In this document: in pieces, positions 12,990 to 19,442 of the stretch | Numbering within the stretch: position 1 is the first letter of the stretch | Layout: the number at the start of each line of letters is the position of its first letter | Virus record (IMG/VR): IMGVR_UViG_3300009176_000089 | Span: 1 to 20,512 of that record | DNA length: 20,512 bases | Reading direction: 5' to 3' (one strand) | Origin: a virus | Program-made: the position numbers and the translations under genes | Notes under the pieces: model-generated | What the model was told of the DNA's origin: nothing | Databases searched by the model: none | Seen by the model: the letters and a program-made list of their open reading frames with translations, nothing else

Positions 12990-13208
12990 ATGCCTAAGTC
13001 CCCCGATTTCAATCGACTCGCTGATGTCTGCTTGTCGCGTGTCTACGAAGTCCGCGCCAAAGGACTAATCGCTGAGCACGACGTCGTCGCCGAGCAGCTC
13101 CGGCAGGTGTGGAATGCGCGCGGCGCCGCGGACGTGGCAGAAGCCGAACGGCACGACGAACACCCGAGGCAGTTGGTGGCTCACGCGATCAGGGCCTTAG
13201 ATGCCTGA
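12990..13208 (+). CDS. Unknown 72-aa helical protein
   Basis: The ATG is preceded by GGAGAAGG. The sequence is mostly helical and charged (FNRLADVCLSRVYEVRAKGL, HDVVAEQLRQVWNARGAADV) with no cysteine pair or membrane helix. Its stop shares one base with the HNH gene ATG (TGATG), so the two are probably coupled. No family recognised. Confidence 0.55.
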   Translation: MPKSPDFNRLADVCLSRVYEVRAKGLIAEHDVVAEQLRQVWNARGAADVAEAERHDEHPRQLVAHAIRALDA

Positions 13209-13612
13209 TGCCGCATGCACCCTCACACCCCTGTGCGGAACCTGGTTGTGCAGCCTTACTCCCTGCAGGGACGGCCAGGTGTCAGGCCCACGCACCCAAG
13301 GCGACCCATGGGTGGAACCCCAAGGCGCCCCGTATCCGAGGCGGCACACTGCAACGCATGCGTGCAAGGTTGTTCAGTTCGTACCCGTTGTGTGTGCTGT
13401 GCTTACAGAAGCAGCCACAGGTGATCAGTATCGCCACCATTCGTGACCATGTGGTCCCGTTAGCCGAAGGGGGCCGAGATGACACCACCAATGAACAAGC
13501 GTTGTGCCAGTACTGTTCCGATACGAAGACTCGAGAAGAAGCGAGACGCGGACGCCTGAGGAGAACCGAGGAGCCGGGGGGACCGAAAATGTTAGAAAAA
13601 AACCGGCCCTGA
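13208..13612 (+). CDS. HNH endonuclease (packaging-associated type)
   Basis: 134 aa. An N-terminal Cys/His cluster (C9, C14, C25, H28) precedes the HNH domain: LFSSYPLCVLCLQKQ with C62/C65, then IRDHVVPLAEGGRDD with D80-H81, N95, and ALCQYCSDTKTREE with C100/C103 and K107. In HK97-like phages an HNH protein encoded near terminase stimulates DNA cutting during packaging; here the gene is about 1.4 kb before the small terminase gene, separated by a methylase. A free-standing homing-type nuclease is the alternative. The tail is basic. Confidence 0.88.
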   Translation: MPHAPSHPCAEPGCAALLPAGTARCQAHAPKATHGWNPKAPRIRGGTLQRMRARLFSSYPLCVLCLQKQPQVISIATIRDHVVPLAEGGRDDTTNEQALCQYCSDTKTREEARRGRLRRTEEPGGPKMLEKNRP

Positions 13613-13666
13613 AACCATTCGCTTCCCGGCGCGCAACATTCCGCAGATCTGAGAGTGTTCTATCTT

Positions 13667-14875
13667 ATGCCGAAGCCGAAGACACCCGTTAAACCGCGTC
13701 ATGATGCCCCAGGACCGACGATCGGGCACGTCCGCGACCTCACGCCAGACCCGGCGAACCGGCGGGCCCACAACCCGCGCAATCTGGGGATGCTGGTGGA
13801 TGCGCTGCACAAGGTGGGAGCGTCACGGTCCATTGTCGTAGACGAGGACGGGGTAATCCTGGCTGGTAACGGTGTGGTTGAGGCGGCGTCAGAAGCCGGG
13901 ATCACGAAGCTGCAGATCGTCGACGCGGACGGGGACACGCTCGTCGCGGTGCGCCGGCGAGGGCTGACGCCGAGCCAGAAGCGAGAGCTGGCAATCTACG
14001 ACAACCGGACGGCGGAGCTGGCGGAGTGGAACGTGGAACAGCTCGCCGCGGACTTGCAGAACGGGGAGGACCTGACGGCGTTCTTCCTGCCGGACGAACT
14101 CAAGACGCTGCTGGCCGGCGCGGAGGGCGTCAAGGCGGGATTGACTGATCCGGACGATGTGCCGGAAGAACGGCCCACGGGCATCGTTCCGGGCGATGTG
14201 TTCGACTTGGGGTCACACCGGCTGTTATGCGGCGATGCGACCGGCGGCTCGTCCTGCGCCGTTGAGTGGGCGGCGGCGGCGTCCGTGCTCTGGGCGGATC
14301 CGCCCTATTCGAAAGACTACACATCGCGGGGCGATAAGGGGTCATGCGAACGGAGCGGACGCTTTGTAGACGTGCTCGCCTCGCTCGCAGAGTTCGGAGA
14401 TCTAGCGGGATCGTACTACGTGAAGCTACCGTGGTATGACACCGTCGCCGCGGTGCCGTTACTGCGCCCGTCGAATTTTCTCGTCTGGGCAAAGGTTGGA
14501 TTCGGTATGGGCGGCGGCGATTTTCGTACGCAGCACGAGATTATGCTTTACCGACGCAACCGCGGTATCTGTGCGGCCGCCGCGGACGTGGGCGACGTGT
14601 GGTCGTTTCCTGTGCCGTTCCGCGGGCGCATGCTGCACGTTGCCGAGACGCCCGTAGCGATTATCACGCAAGCTCTCCGATTTAGCAGCGTCGCCAGATC
14701 ATCAGTGTTCGATCCGTTCTGTGGCTCGGGCTCGAGCCTAATGGCCGCAGAGCAATTGGACCGCGTCTGTCACGCTATTGAAATCGAGCCGCGCTATTGC
14801 CAGGTCATCATCGATCGCTGGGAAGCCTTCACCGGCCAGCAGGCCGTCAAAGTCGGGGAGGCGATCCGTGCGTAG
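13667..14875 (+). CDS. ParB-like domain fused to N6-adenine/N4-cytosine DNA methylase
   Basis: 402 aa from ATG 13667; a GTG four codons upstream is open but no clear ribosome site decides. Residues 22-120 form a ParB/sulfiredoxin-like domain (HNPRNLGMLVDALHKVGASR, SIVVDEDGVILAGNGVVEAA, LTPSQKRELAIYDNRTAELA). Residues 170-390 are the methylase: GDVFDLGSHRLLCGDA, WADPPYSKDY with DPPY at 211-214, and VFDPFCGSGSSLMAAEQ carrying the cofactor-binding FxGxG, then IEIEPRYCQVIIDRW. Order DPPY before FxGxG is the beta-class permutation. It is the third methylase in the window and lies directly before the packaging genes. The ParB-like part may give DNA binding or regulate activity. Confidence 0.9.
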   Translation: MPKPKTPVKPRHDAPGPTIGHVRDLTPDPANRRAHNPRNLGMLVDALHKVGASRSIVVDEDGVILAGNGVVEAASEAGITKLQIVDADGDTLVAVRRRGLTPSQKRELAIYDNRTAELAEWNVEQLAADLQNGEDLTAFFLPDELKTLLAGAEGVKAGLTDPDDVPEERPTGIVPGDVFDLGSHRLLCGDATGGSSCAVEWAAAASVLWADPPYSKDYTSRGDKGSCERSGRFVDVLASLAEFGDLAGSYYVKLPWYDTVAAVPLLRPSNFLVWAKVGFGMGGGDFRTQHEIMLYRRNRGICAAAADVGDVWSFPVPFRGRMLHVAETPVAIITQALRFSSVARSSVFDPFCGSGSSLMAAEQLDRVCHAIEIEPRYCQVIIDRWEAFTGQQAVKVGEAIRA

Positions 14876-14966
14876 TCACTGGACGCACGGCTATTACCAC
14901 GACTGCGCGCACCGCTGGCGCTGGTCGGCGCGGCTCTGTCAACGGTGGAAACGGTGGTGGCGATGA
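14868..14966 (+). CDS. Trp/Arg/His-rich 32-aa micro-protein between methylase and terminase
   Basis: The GTG lies 8 bases inside the methylase gene end, and the TGA overlaps the small terminase ATG as ATGA. The product has 6 Trp in 32 residues plus many Arg and His (RSHWTHGYYHDCAHRW, KRWWR). It may be a real basic micro-protein or, more simply, a coupling leader that brings ribosomes to the small terminase start. Sequence alone cannot separate these. Confidence 0.35.
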   Translation: MRSHWTHGYYHDCAHRWRWSARLCQRWKRWWR

Positions 14967-15424
14967 AGGGCCGCAAGCCAGAACCCTCGGCGCTGAAACT
15001 CCTCCGCGGGTTGCCCGGGAAGCGGAAGCTGAGCGCCGACGAACCGCAGCCGGCGCCGCTCGTCGACCTCACCCCGCCGGCGTGGCTGGACCCGGAAGCG
15101 CAAGCCGAATGGCTGCGCCTCGCGCCCATGCTCGAGCGCCTCGGCGTCTTGACGGAGACGGACACCGGCGCCCTCACCGCCTACTGTGACGCCTGGGCGA
15201 CGTGGAAAGCCGCGACGCAGCAGATCCGGAAGTTTGGCATGGTGATCAAGGGCAAGGCGGATCTGCCGATCGTCTCGCCCTACGTGAAGATTGCGCATAA
15301 CGCCCTGCTCCAGATGCGGGCGCTCCTGACCGAGTTCGGGATGACGCCGAGCTCGCGGGCGCGGGTGCATGTGCCGACGAAGACGGAGAAGCCCGCCGTC
15401 TCCAAGTGGGTCGGGCTCAAGTGA
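14963..15424 (+). CDS. terS: Terminase small subunit (P27-like family)
   Basis: 153 aa starting MKGRKPEPSALKLLRGLPGK, the typical opening of P27-family phage small terminases, followed by PPAWLDPEAQAEWLRLAPML, then a helical GVLTETDTGALTAYCDAWATW segment and QIRKFGMVIKGKADLPIVSP. Small terminase recognises the packaging site in phage DNA and hands it to the large subunit. I chose the ATG at 14963 over an upstream GTG because it matches the family start and overlaps the preceding stop. Its own stop shares GTGA with the ATPase-half gene. Confidence 0.92.
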   Translation: MKGRKPEPSALKLLRGLPGKRKLSADEPQPAPLVDLTPPAWLDPEAQAEWLRLAPMLERLGVLTETDTGALTAYCDAWATWKAATQQIRKFGMVIKGKADLPIVSPYVKIAHNALLQMRALLTEFGMTPSSRARVHVPTKTEKPAVSKWVGLK

Positions 15425-16311
15425 CGCAAGCCGAGCGCGCGATTCGCGTGATTGGCAACCTGACCCACACCAAGGGGCCGTTCGCGCTTGAGCCGTTCAA
15501 TCTCCGCCCGTGGCAACTGCGCATCCTGCGGCAACTGTTCACCACGGGGAAGGACGGCCGGCGGGTGTATCGCCAATGCCTCCTGATGCTGCCCCGGAAG
15601 AACGGGAAGTCCGAACTCTGCGCGGCACTGGCGATTTACTTCCTGATGTTCGACGGGGAGATCGGAGGTGAGGTCTACTCAGCGGCGGCCGACAAGGACC
15701 AGGCGGCGCTGGTATTCAACGTCGCGGCGCAAATGATCCGCAACGACCCGGAGCTCGAGGCGCAAGTCGAGATCATTGATTCGCAGAAGCGCATCGTCCA
15801 CCGCGCCAGCAACAGCATTTACCGGGCGATTTCCGCGGAGGCGTACTCGAAACACGGGTTCAACGCGTCGGTGGTGATTTACGACGAGCTCCACGCGGCG
15901 CCGAGCCGGGACTTGTGGGACGTGCTGTCGACGAGCCAGGGCGCGCGGGCGCAGCCGCTGATGATGGCGATTACCACGGCCGGCTTCGATCGCCACTCGA
16001 TTCTCTGGGAACTCTACGCCCATGCGACGAAGGTGGCGGAGAACCCGTCCCTCGATCCGTCGTTTCTGCCGATTCTCTACGAGGCGCCGATCGGCGCGGA
16101 CTGGACGGACGAGCGGGTGTGGAAGAAGGCGAACCCGGCGCTCGGGGACTTCCGAAGCCTTGAGGAAATGCGGATCGCGTGCGCGCGGGCCCAGGAGATT
16201 CCCGCCCAGGAGAATACGTTCCGGCGGCTGTATCTCAACCAGTGGACGGAGCAGGCCTCGCGTTGGTTGGCGTTGGCGGCGTGGGATGCGTGCTGTGTGG
16301 TGACAGCATGA
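15421..16311 (+). CDS. terL: Terminase large subunit, ATPase half (split gene, part 1)
   Basis: 296 aa from a GTG overlapping the terS stop. This is the packaging motor ATPase of the Terminase_1 type: an adenine-binding region (FNLRPWQLRILRQLF), Walker A-like MLPRKNGKSE (K63), SAAADKDQAA, Walker B VVIYDELHAA with D155 and catalytic E156, and the coupling motif ITTAG (184-188). The protein ends shortly after LNQWTEQASRWLALAAWDAC, the point where related large terminases normally continue directly into the nuclease domain. Here it stops, and the nuclease half begins 365 bases later in a separate gene. Its stop shares ATGA with an inserted zinc-finger gene. Confidence 0.93.
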   Translation: MTQAERAIRVIGNLTHTKGPFALEPFNLRPWQLRILRQLFTTGKDGRRVYRQCLLMLPRKNGKSELCAALAIYFLMFDGEIGGEVYSAAADKDQAALVFNVAAQMIRNDPELEAQVEIIDSQKRIVHRASNSIYRAISAEAYSKHGFNASVVIYDELHAAPSRDLWDVLSTSQGARAQPLMMAITTAGFDRHSILWELYAHATKVAENPSLDPSFLPILYEAPIGADWTDERVWKKANPALGDFRSLEEMRIACARAQEIPAQENTFRRLYLNQWTEQASRWLALAAWDACCVVTA

Positions 16312-16679
16312 ACGTCATGTGCAAGTGCGGGGCGCGCCCTCGGCGGTGTTGGCGCTATTGCCCGATGTGCCGGCGGCGCGTGAACGTCGTGAGAACGTGC
16401 CGTCTGTGCGGACAGCCAGCGGCGTCCTCGACGGGATCGCTCTGCGCGAAACATCGGGCGGTGCCGCGTCCACGCGGGATCTGTCAAGCCTGCGGCAAAC
16501 CAGCCCTGAACACCAAATCCACGTGGTGCGAGTACCACGAGCCCGACGCGAACCGGCATCAACGCGAACCATATGGTCCGAAAGGCCCAAGGACCGACGA
16601 ACGATCACTGGCGGAGGCGGAGCTTCAAGCCGCGGCGCTTTCAGCCTTGACGGACGAGGAACTGCGAGAGTTGCTATGA
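16308..16679 (+). CDS. Multi zinc-finger protein inserted between the two terminase halves
   Basis: 123 aa that exactly fill the space between the terminase ATPase and nuclease genes, with ATGA overlaps at both ends. Three Cys/His modules are visible: a Cys-rich first unit (C5, C7, C18, C21), then two units with identical spacing C-x2-C-x11-C-x2-H (C31/C34/C46/H49 and C59/C62/C74/H77). A basic linker (NRHQREPYGPKGPR) and an acidic helical tail (residues 98-123) follow. I see no HNH, GIY-YIG or LAGLIDADG catalytic motif, so it is not an obvious homing nuclease. It could bridge the split terminase halves, bind packaging-site DNA, or be a passenger that broke the gene without loss of function. 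Confidence 0.8.
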   Translation: MNVMCKCGARPRRCWRYCPMCRRRVNVVRTCRLCGQPAASSTGSLCAKHRAVPRPRGICQACGKPALNTKSTWCEYHEPDANRHQREPYGPKGPRTDERSLAEAELQAAALSALTDEELRELL

Positions 16680-17338
16680 CGCGCGCAGAATACCGCGCCG
16701 CGCTGAAAGGCCGCCGCTGTTACCTCGGCCTCGACTTATCGAGCACGAAGGACTTGACGGCGCTCGTCGGCGTCTTCCCCGACGACGACGGCTTCGACGT
16801 CCTGGCGCAGTTCTTCGTGCCCAAAGACAGCATTCAGGAGCGCGCGAAACGCGACCGCGTGCCCTACGACCAGTGGGAACGCGACGGCTTTCTCATCGCC
16901 ACCCCCGGGAACGTCGTCGACTACGACTACATTCGCCAGACGCTGAAGGATTGGGCGGCCGAGTTCGCGGTGCGGGAGGTCGCCTTTGATCCCTGGAATG
17001 CCACCGACCTGGTAACGAAGCTTCAGGAGCAGGACGGGTTTACCTGCGTCCCCATGCGGCAGGGGTTTGTCTCGCTCTCCGCGCCGACGAAGGCGCTCGA
17101 GAAGGCGGTGCTCGGCCGCACGCTGCGCCATGACGGGCACCCGGTGCTCCGCTGGAATGTCTCGAATGTGTCGGTGGAGACGGACGCGACGGGGAACCTG
17201 AAGCCGTCGAAGAAGGTGTCCACGGAGCGCATCGACGGCGTCGTCGCGCTGATCATGGCGATCGATCGCATGGAACGGAACAACTCGACGACGACGCCGA
17301 CGTACACCATGCTCGTGTTAGGAGGCGGTAGCCGGTGA
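16676..17338 (+). CDS. Terminase large subunit, nuclease half (split gene, part 2)
   Basis: 220 aa. The open frame extends upstream, but the ATG at 16676 overlaps the zinc-finger gene stop and immediately precedes family-like sequence (YRAALKGRRCYLGLDLSST). The RNase H-like nuclease of large terminases is visible with acidic residues D20 (GLDLSSTKDL), D105 (EVAFDPWNATDLV) and D187 (STERIDGVVALIMAIDR); the FVSLSAPTKALEKAVL segment is also typical. This domain cuts concatemeric DNA during packaging and must work with the ATPase encoded upstream. Both halves keep their key residues, so a functional two-piece terminase is likely. The stop shares GTGA with the next gene. Confidence 0.9.
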   Translation: MTRAEYRAALKGRRCYLGLDLSSTKDLTALVGVFPDDDGFDVLAQFFVPKDSIQERAKRDRVPYDQWERDGFLIATPGNVVDYDYIRQTLKDWAAEFAVREVAFDPWNATDLVTKLQEQDGFTCVPMRQGFVSLSAPTKALEKAVLGRTLRHDGHPVLRWNVSNVSVETDATGNLKPSKKVSTERIDGVVALIMAIDRMERNNSTTTPTYTMLVLGGGSR

Positions 17339-17564: not shown

Positions 17565-19442
17565 GTGAACCGCGCCTATAGCCTGCTCGAAATCAAGTCG
17601 ATCGACGCGGAGCGCCGCGTCATCCGGGGCATTGCGACCACGCCCGCGCCGGATCGCCAGGGTGACAGCATCGATCCGCTCGGCGTCACGTTCACCAATC
17701 CACTCCCGCTGCTCTGGCAGCACGATCCCACAGCTCCGATCGGCGAGGTGACACTCGATCCGCCGACGGCGGACGGTGTCACGTTCACCGCGTCGCTCCC
17801 GCTGATCACCAAGCCGGGCAAGGCCAAGGACCGCGTCGACGAAGCGTGGGATTCGCTGACTTCGACGCCGCCGCTGATTCGCGGCACGTCGATCGGCTGG
17901 AAGCCCCTCGCGCCCCCGACGAAGCTCAAGTCCGGCGTCCTGCGCTGGGCCAAAACCATGATCGGCGAACTGTCGCTCGTCACGATCCCCGCGAACATGG
18001 AAGCCACGGTGCTTTCCGTCAAGCAATGCGACCTGGGCGCGTCAGCCCTCCATCCGCCCGGCGCCACGGGCTTGCCTGTAGTTACAGCGGTGAAGGCCGC
18101 GACGCCCATGACTATTCAAGACCAGATCACGCAATTCGAGAACACCCGCGCCGCGAAAGTGGCCGCGATGAACGACATGATGCTCAAGTCGGACGGGCAG
18201 ACGCTCGACGAGACGCAGGCCGAGGCGTACAAAACCCTCGAGCGCGAAGTCGAAAGCGTCGACGAACACCTGCCCCGCCTGCGCAAGCTCGAACAGACGA
18301 ACCTCACCAAAGCCCTGCCGATCACCGCGAAGACGCCCGACCAGGCGAGCACGCAGCGTGGCGGCGGCGTCATCCAGGTGAAGTCGCTGCTCCCGAAGGG
18401 CACCGCGTTTACCCGCTACGCGATGGCGATTGCGCGCAGCCGCGGCGACAAGATGGAAGCGATCGAATACGCGAAGCGGTGGCAGGACACGACGCCCGAA
18501 GTCGAGTTGATGATCAAGGCGGCCGTTGCGGCCGGCACGACCGTTGACGCGACGTGGGCCGCGCCGCTCGTCCCGTCCGTGCAGCACCTGATCGACGAGT
18601 TCCTCGAACTCCTCCGCCCGGCCACGATCATCGGCAAGATCCCCAGCCTGCGGCGCGTCCCGTTCAACGTCAGCGTCCCGTCACAGACGGCGGGGGGAAC
18701 GTATGGATGGGTGGGCCAGGGCCTCGCGAAGCCGGTGACGAAGCTCGGGTTCGGTGCGGTGACGCTCGGCATGAACAAGATTGCCGGGATCATCGTCCTC
18801 ACCGAAGAGCTCGTGCGCCTCTCGACGCCGTCCGCCGAAGAGACCGTGCGCCAGGACATGATCGCCGGCATCGCCGCGTTCATGGACGCGCAGTTCACGG
18901 ATCCCGCGGTGGCCGCGGTCGGCGTGATCTCGCCGGCCTCGATCACCAACGGCACCGTCGCGATTGCCTCGAGCGGGACGTCGTCCGCGAACGCCGTCAC
19001 GGATATCAAGGCGCTGATCGCCACCTTCGTCGCCGCGAACCTCGGCCTCGGCACCGCCGTGCTGCTGATGTCGGAAGCGAACGCCTTTGCGCTCTCGACG
19101 GCGCTGAACCCCCTCGGCCAGCCCATGTTCCCCAGCATCGGCACCAGCGGCGGATCGATCCTCGGGATCCCCGTCGTCACCAGCTCCGCGATGGGCACCA
19201 ACATCGTGCTGCTCGACGCCCGCGGGATTCTCTACGCGGACGACGGCGGCGTGACGATTGACGTCAGCCGCGAAGCCAGCGTGCAGATGGACTCCGCCCC
19301 GGATTCGCCCGCGGTTGCCACGACCGTCATGGTGAGTCTCTGGCAGAACAACCTCGTCGGCCTCCGCGCCGAGCGATTCGTCTCCTGGGCGCGCGCCCGT
19401 CTGGCGTCCGTCAAATACGTCTCCGGCGCCGCCTACGTGTAA
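17565..19442 (+). CDS. Fused prohead protease and HK97-type major capsid protein
   Basis: 625 aa from a GTG with no strong ribosome site. Residues 1-155 are a Peptidase_S78-like prohead protease: IRGIATTPAPDRQGDSIDP, LLWQHDPTAPIG with probable catalytic H53, IRGTSIGWKP with probable S109, and ELSLVTIPANMEA. Residues from M182 (MTIQDQITQFENTRAAK) are a helical delta/scaffold-like part. About 290-625 is the HK97-fold capsid protein (LVPSVQHLIDEFLELLRPAT, GWVGQGLAKPVTKLGF, ILTEELVRLS, PLGQPMFPSIG, GIPVVTSSAM, VSLWQNNLVGLRAERFVSW). An internal start at M182 (18108) could give separate capsid protein. Normally these are two genes. The protease would release the capsid from the scaffold during maturation. 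Confidence 0.93.
   Translation: MNRAYSLLEIKSIDAERRVIRGIATTPAPDRQGDSIDPLGVTFTNPLPLLWQHDPTAPIGEVTLDPPTADGVTFTASLPLITKPGKAKDRVDEAWDSLTSTPPLIRGTSIGWKPLAPPTKLKSGVLRWAKTMIGELSLVTIPANMEATVLSVKQCDLGASALHPPGATGLPVVTAVKAATPMTIQDQITQFENTRAAKVAAMNDMMLKSDGQTLDETQAEAYKTLEREVESVDEHLPRLRKLEQTNLTKALPITAKTPDQASTQRGGGVIQVKSLLPKGTAFTRYAMAIARSRGDKMEAIEYAKRWQDTTPEVELMIKAAVAAGTTVDATWAAPLVPSVQHLIDEFLELLRPATIIGKIPSLRRVPFNVSVPSQTAGGTYGWVGQGLAKPVTKLGFGAVTLGMNKIAGIIVLTEELVRLSTPSAEETVRQDMIAGIAAFMDAQFTDPAVAAVGVISPASITNGTVAIASSGTSSANAVTDIKALIATFVAANLGLGTAVLLMSEANAFALSTALNPLGQPMFPSIGTSGGSILGIPVVTSSAMGTNIVLLDARGILYADDGGVTIDVSREASVQMDSAPDSPAVATTVMVSLWQNNLVGLRAERFVSWARARLASVKYVSGAAYV

Follow-up and report, generated by a model that had tools for sequence, protein, structure and literature searches.

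A large terminase gene divided at the ATPase-nuclease linker, with a variable passenger gene or none at the junction, in metagenomic phage contigs

The window analysed here, a whole IMG/VR virus contig of 20,512 nucleotides (20.5 kb), carries on its plus strand the packaging genes in the order small terminase, ATPase half of the large terminase (TerL), zinc-ribbon ORF and nuclease half of TerL, followed 3' of the nuclease half by a 62-aa ORF and a protease-capsid fusion, with a GTGA or ATGA overlap at every step of the packaging-gene chain. The small terminase, of the Terminase_4/P27 type, occupies 14945-15424 (Pfam PF05119, 2.9e-29; phrog_83, 9.6e-48), and its stop overlaps the GTG start of the ATPase half in the GTGA at 15421-15424. 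The ATPase half (15421-16311, 296 aa; Pfam TerL_ATPase, 2.3e-25; phrog_9, 1e-96) has the motif LPRKNGKS with K60 and K63, DE at 155/156 and ITTAG at 184, and ends in WDACCVVTA*. Within its last codons lies GGTGA (16299-16303), a Shine-Dalgarno-like sequence for the next gene that also encodes the conserved VV, and the ATPase stop overlaps the start of a passenger gene (16308-16679) in an ATGA at 16308-16311, a geometry shared by nearly all split relatives. A second ATGA (16676-16679) joins the end of the passenger, a 123-aa zinc-ribbon/zinc-knuckle protein assigned to no family, to the nuclease half (16676-17338, 220 aa; Pfam TerL_nuclease, 9e-39), which begins with MTRAEYR and contains an RNase H-like triad of D20, D105 and D187. 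An earlier, sequence-only reading of the window had placed the three ORFs and their motifs in these positions, and the Pfam and PHROG matches agree with it; its description of a gap filled by the zinc ORF with ATGA at both junctions also holds, the distance from ATPase stop to nuclease start being 364 nt. Directly upstream of the terminase genes are an HNH endonuclease (13109-13612) and a ParB-like/N6-N4 methyltransferase fusion (13655-14875). Downstream, one 625-aa ORF (17565-19442) appears to be a fusion of the head maturation protease with the major capsid protein, and the window has no portal gene between terminase and capsid; in related contigs the portal gene lies elsewhere, in one of them (that of L143) about 4.6 kb downstream of terL.

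Both halves belong to the same family as TerL of HK97 (gp2, PDB 6Z6D; PMC9410871, PMC10359639), with which they share the two-lysine Walker A, the Walker B with DE, an RNase H-like nuclease with three catalytic Asp, a small terminase (TerS) gene directly upstream and capsid genes downstream, as well as an HNH gene, which in the window lies further upstream. The ATPase half aligns to chain residues 12-297 of 6Z6D (E 1e-37) and the nuclease half to residues 305-491 (E 7e-34), placing the cut at about native residues 288-296 of HK97 TerL (the chain numbering is offset, native D302 being 311 in the chain), a region that forms the linker from the ATPase lid to the nuclease (PMC9410871). Positions 6-85 of the Pfam TerL_nuclease profile match the ATPase half and 89-282 the nuclease half; because this model begins within the ATPase half, a small correction to the sequence-only reading, the cut again falls at the linker. 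Whereas HK97 TerL is a single polypeptide with a covalent linker, in the window the linker is replaced by a stop and a start, with or without an intervening gene in relatives, such that the protein is encoded by two or three ORFs in different frames.

Relatives were sought in IMG/VR using each of the proteins and DNA patterns matching both junction ends, and each junction was classified by script. About 46 contigs, the window included, are split at the same point and come from many metagenomes, which is more than chance would give; 66 unique fused sequences were recovered alongside them. In the empty form of the junction, represented by about 14 distinct split sequences (for example L018, L037, L095, L117 and L126), the ATPase stop and nuclease start overlap as ATGA directly or nearly so. 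In the filled form, 18 distinct inserts of 46-865 nt lie exactly at the ATPase/nuclease junction, 16 of them holding a single ORF that begins on or next to the stop of the ATPase gene and terminates over the start of the nuclease gene, against about 3.4 such gap-filling ORFs expected from dinucleotide shuffles summed over loci, a test in which short inserts are individually not significant. The inserts of L110 and L176 have no single gap-filling ORF.

The inserts vary in sequence, size and relative frame and have no recognisable family in common. They include a 37-aa hydrophobic (membrane) peptide in L084, a hydrophobic peptide of about 61 aa in L004, a Cys-rich ORF in L005, a Cys-rich ORF with a weak HTH-like match in L176, a 290-aa protein resembling phrog_15934 in L011, and, in L174 (2111-2635), a 174-aa Cys-/zinc-knuckle repeat protein of three units, for which no relative was found in IMG/VR or the phage records beyond its own locus. 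The 57-aa product of the L006 insert (1579-1752) resembles part of the phage capsid family (Pfam 2.5e-4, below the curated cut-off), as though the junction had acquired a fragment of a capsid gene; no closer source was found among the loci compared. All split phages are metagenome contigs, and no split was found at high identity in the set of isolate phages, where the best nuclease identity was about 51%. A distant TerL (45% identity) in the genome of Singulisphaera sp. GP187 (L190:4001-5454) likewise ends at this linker, its stop overlapping the next start as TTGA, which represents either an independent fission or a frameshifted gene. PHROG families 2699, 4914, 7331 and 37124 match TerL only in parts, hinting that terL may be fragmented, or interrupted at different places, in other phages too.

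The passenger of the window contains the motifs C31-x2-C-x11-C-x2-H49 and C59-x2-C-x11-C-x2-H77 together with a Cys-rich first unit (C5, C7, C14, C18 and C21), exactly as had been claimed, and thus the paired CxxC/CxxH ligand pattern of zinc-ribbon/zinc-knuckle proteins. Its best Pfam match is the double zinc ribbon (DZR) at 0.0099, below the cut-off; no match was found in NCBIfam, no significant one in the PDB and no relative in 50,697 phage records, and the structure model, with a mean pLDDT of 60, is not interpretable. In IMG/VR, the zinc insert was found in two further contigs besides the window, at the same locus only. The sequence-only reading held that this gene had split the terminase and that its product might bridge the halves or recognise DNA. 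Such a functional third subunit would suit the position of the gene, exactly between the halves with ATGA overlaps on both sides, and the occurrence of a second zinc-ribbon repeat protein (L174) and of Cys-rich ORFs (L005 and L176) among the 18 inserts. We nevertheless consider it improbable, since L084, whose halves are nearly identical to those of the window (99.7% protein identity for the ATPase, 96.8% for the nuclease), carries its hydrophobic peptide instead, the split relatives with empty junctions have no insert at all, and the 17 other distinct inserts are unrelated to the zinc gene; even the zinc proteins of the window and L174 could not be aligned convincingly. Given the empty junctions, the unrelated inserts and the different insert between the near-identical halves of L084, the zinc gene seems neither to have caused the split nor to be needed as a motor subunit, and its product is best described as a passenger, perhaps one that binds nucleic acid.

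Comparison of the window with L002 further indicates that the zinc gene travels separately from the terminase halves, which again tells against a third subunit. The zinc gene is identical at 363 of 364 nt between the two, while the ATPase half matches at 839 of 891 nt (5.8% different) and the nuclease half at 611 of 657 nt (7.0% different); at the flank rate, one difference or fewer in the insert has a probability of about 1e-9 to 7e-9. This near-identity may reflect a recent transfer; the alternative is that the zinc gene is under extreme constraint.

Split genes often turn out to be pseudogenes or errors of assembly, and the arrangement might on that ground be taken for a decayed, dead terminase or an artefact, an explanation we find scarcely credible here. 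Assembly error was rejected, as the split is shared by many independent contigs from many independent metagenomes. Median dN/dS is 0.16 in split and 0.18 in fused ATPase sequences and 0.20 in both split and fused nuclease sequences, and between the ATPase halves of the window and L084 dN is 0.002 at a dS of 0.32. The nuclease triad is invariant across 31 split and 60 fused rows, and the Walker and triad residues are invariant in all rows that cover those positions. No second terL was found in the 13 split contigs checked, of 20 to 57 kb, each of which has one ATPase match and one divided nuclease match; portal genes are present in split contigs where sought. In 31 of 32 split loci the overlapping start is immediately preceded by a Shine-Dalgarno match of 4-5 nt, compared with 33 of 264 sampled positions in fused relatives, and the conservation of the VV codons follows from the overlap of this site with the end of the ATPase gene. 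The split halves therefore look functional, and the split remains, as far as can be judged from these sequences, a real allele whose halves have not decayed. Thus the part of the sequence-only reading that described an apparently working, cleanly divided terminase stands, but not its inclusion of the zinc gene as a third working part.

Rejoining of the halves into a one-chain terminase by RNA splicing, protein splicing or programmed frameshifting is, in our assessment, very unlikely. Phages whose terL contains introns or inteins are well known, such as ICP1 (PMC10448857) and Campylobacter phage IBB_35 (PMC3322345); terL is likewise the target of inserted genes there, and the empty form of the present junction differs only by a -1 frame change at the ATGA. 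In those phages, however, terL is spliced back to one chain, whereas no splicing element was found here: Rfam gave only chance-level matches to group I or group II intron catalytic RNA, none above noise and all outside the insert, Pfam detected no intein (Hint) domain in the three proteins, and the 364-nt insert is an ORF with neither a ribozyme nor an intein match. The ATPase half ends 5 residues past WDAC, which is too short for an N-intein. Together with the residue check, these searches bear out the earlier view that the locus contains no intron or intein and has lost no catalytic residue. Moreover, the inserts differ in sequence, size and frame, some encode hydrophobic peptides, and the conserved ribosome-binding site would be pointless if the halves were rejoined. 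In the empty form some fused protein could in principle arise by -1 frameshifting at the ATGA, where no slippery site was seen.

Split and fused states are interspersed among close relatives. A tree built from both halves joined requires at least 18 changes between split and fused, 10 of them forced by supported branches; the ATPase tree requires 19 and the nuclease tree 14, all of these counts being rough owing to recombination. Two sister pairs, one of L013 (split, with a 201-base gap) and L024 (fused), the other of L039 (split, with a 301-base gap) and L063 (fused), have 97% protein and about 90% DNA identity across both halves and differ in state only between WDAC and GRRCY, with sharp breakpoints. 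The sequence-only reading had expected a continuous terminase gene in relatives to speak against a working split; many relatives are indeed fused, two of them (L024 and L063) 97% identical to their split sisters, yet the halves have not decayed. State and sequence are most strongly associated next to the junction, in the final codons of the ATPase half and the initial codons of the nuclease half (z 3.6 and 4.9), and less so elsewhere, and the correlation of ATPase and nuclease distances (0.66 in split versus 0.53 in fused forms) gives no sign of freer reassortment in split forms. Some fused genes have relic-like ends at the junction (WDACCV...M in L104, ...ADYRRALKGR in L131 and ...RAERAALKGRR in L016), suggesting that these are re-fusions that retain relics of the split ends. 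Because split and fused forms alternate among close relatives, fission seems to be reversible, or the junction to be exchanged by recombination.

Homing could also account for this distribution, if an endonuclease had opened the slot, its ORF had later decayed or been replaced, and homing with co-conversion had spread the split allele. The scattered occurrence of the split state across the tree (18 changes, of which supported branches force at least 10), the peak of association at the junction, the termini VVxA-ATGA ... TRAEYR common to split loci and the frequent presence of homing endonuclease genes near terL (PMC10448857) are all in keeping with such an origin. We regard it as unlikely, however, as no HNH, GIY-YIG or LAGLIDADG domain was found in any insert scanned, and ordinary homologous recombination through the conserved flanks yields the same pattern.

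The reading we prefer, to which we assign a probability of roughly 0.8, is that the locus encodes a natural two-polypeptide packaging motor with a slot for accessory genes at the terL junction. On this view, two co-translated genes would have arisen from terL through a cut in the short linker that connects the ATPase lid with the nuclease. At its 3' end the ATPase gene would provide the ribosome-binding site GGTGA together with an ATGA start coupling translation to the next ORF, either the nuclease half itself or a passenger ending in ATGA or GTGA over the nuclease start. Translational coupling within one operon would yield two chains that meet non-covalently in the motor ring, presumably arranged as in HK97 with the nuclease ring under the portal and the ATPase ring below it, and this two-chain motor would both translocate and cut DNA. 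Homologous recombination via the conserved flanks in terL would swap the content of the slot, and the split or fused state itself, between phages. HK97 TerL has a β-strand between the lid and the nuclease domain that packs against the nuclease's auxiliary hairpin (PMC9410871). Judged by sequence, the equivalent of this strand may fall within SRWLALAAWDAC, a segment retained by the ATPase half, making it possible that the halves dock by strand addition. The model of the fused relative L007 matches 6Z6D overall (E 1e-44) and has coil and a short helix at the strand segment, at a pTM of 0.63 and with poor inter-domain confidence. Against the function of a split motor stands T4 gp17, whose separated domains, as PMC9958956 relates the work of Kanamaru 2004, keep ATPase and nuclease activity but lose translocation; that split was engineered, whereas the present one is apparently natural.

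More tentatively, and with the odds somewhat against it, the junction may be a mobile cassette with fixed ends and a variable passenger, which converts fused terL to split and back and leaves a motor without a covalent link between ATPase and nuclease. The proposed ends are the ATPase tail with its built-in ribosome-binding site and stop/start, and the nuclease head MTRAEYR. If it exists, such a cassette would give phages a protected, late-expressed accessory slot inside an essential operon.

The nrdA gene of Aeh1, with mobE, is an example of genes in pieces. In phage nrdA, ribonucleotide reductase is split by a homing endonuclease into two functional chains (PMC10448857). Like nrdA, the locus described here has an essential enzyme divided between two chains at an insertion; purifying selection and the retained catalytic residues agree with halves that may together keep their function. 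Unlike nrdA, its inserts across the split phages are 18 unrelated small genes, among which no nuclease could be recognised, and many of the splits are empty; no homing endonuclease gene was found in the gap, either in the window or in the other inserts scanned. A split DNA polymerase, likewise a core phage gene, consists of two ORFs with a small uncharacterised ORF between them, but that is a different gene, and the account of it describes no series of alternative passengers. In the open-access literature we found no published report describing a large terminase made from two genes in this way or a cargo slot within terL, and the split terL with a cargo slot is likely to be new.

These observations bear on both phage genomics and the packaging mechanism. 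Surveys based on terL may count split genes as truncated, and a hypervariable slot within a highly conserved phage gene is a place to seek new small accessory genes. In packaging models, ATP hydrolysis is coupled to DNA movement through a hinge connecting the ATPase with the nuclease domain; halves that are kept separately and are under normal selection provide a natural test of the need for a covalent link in HK97-type motors.
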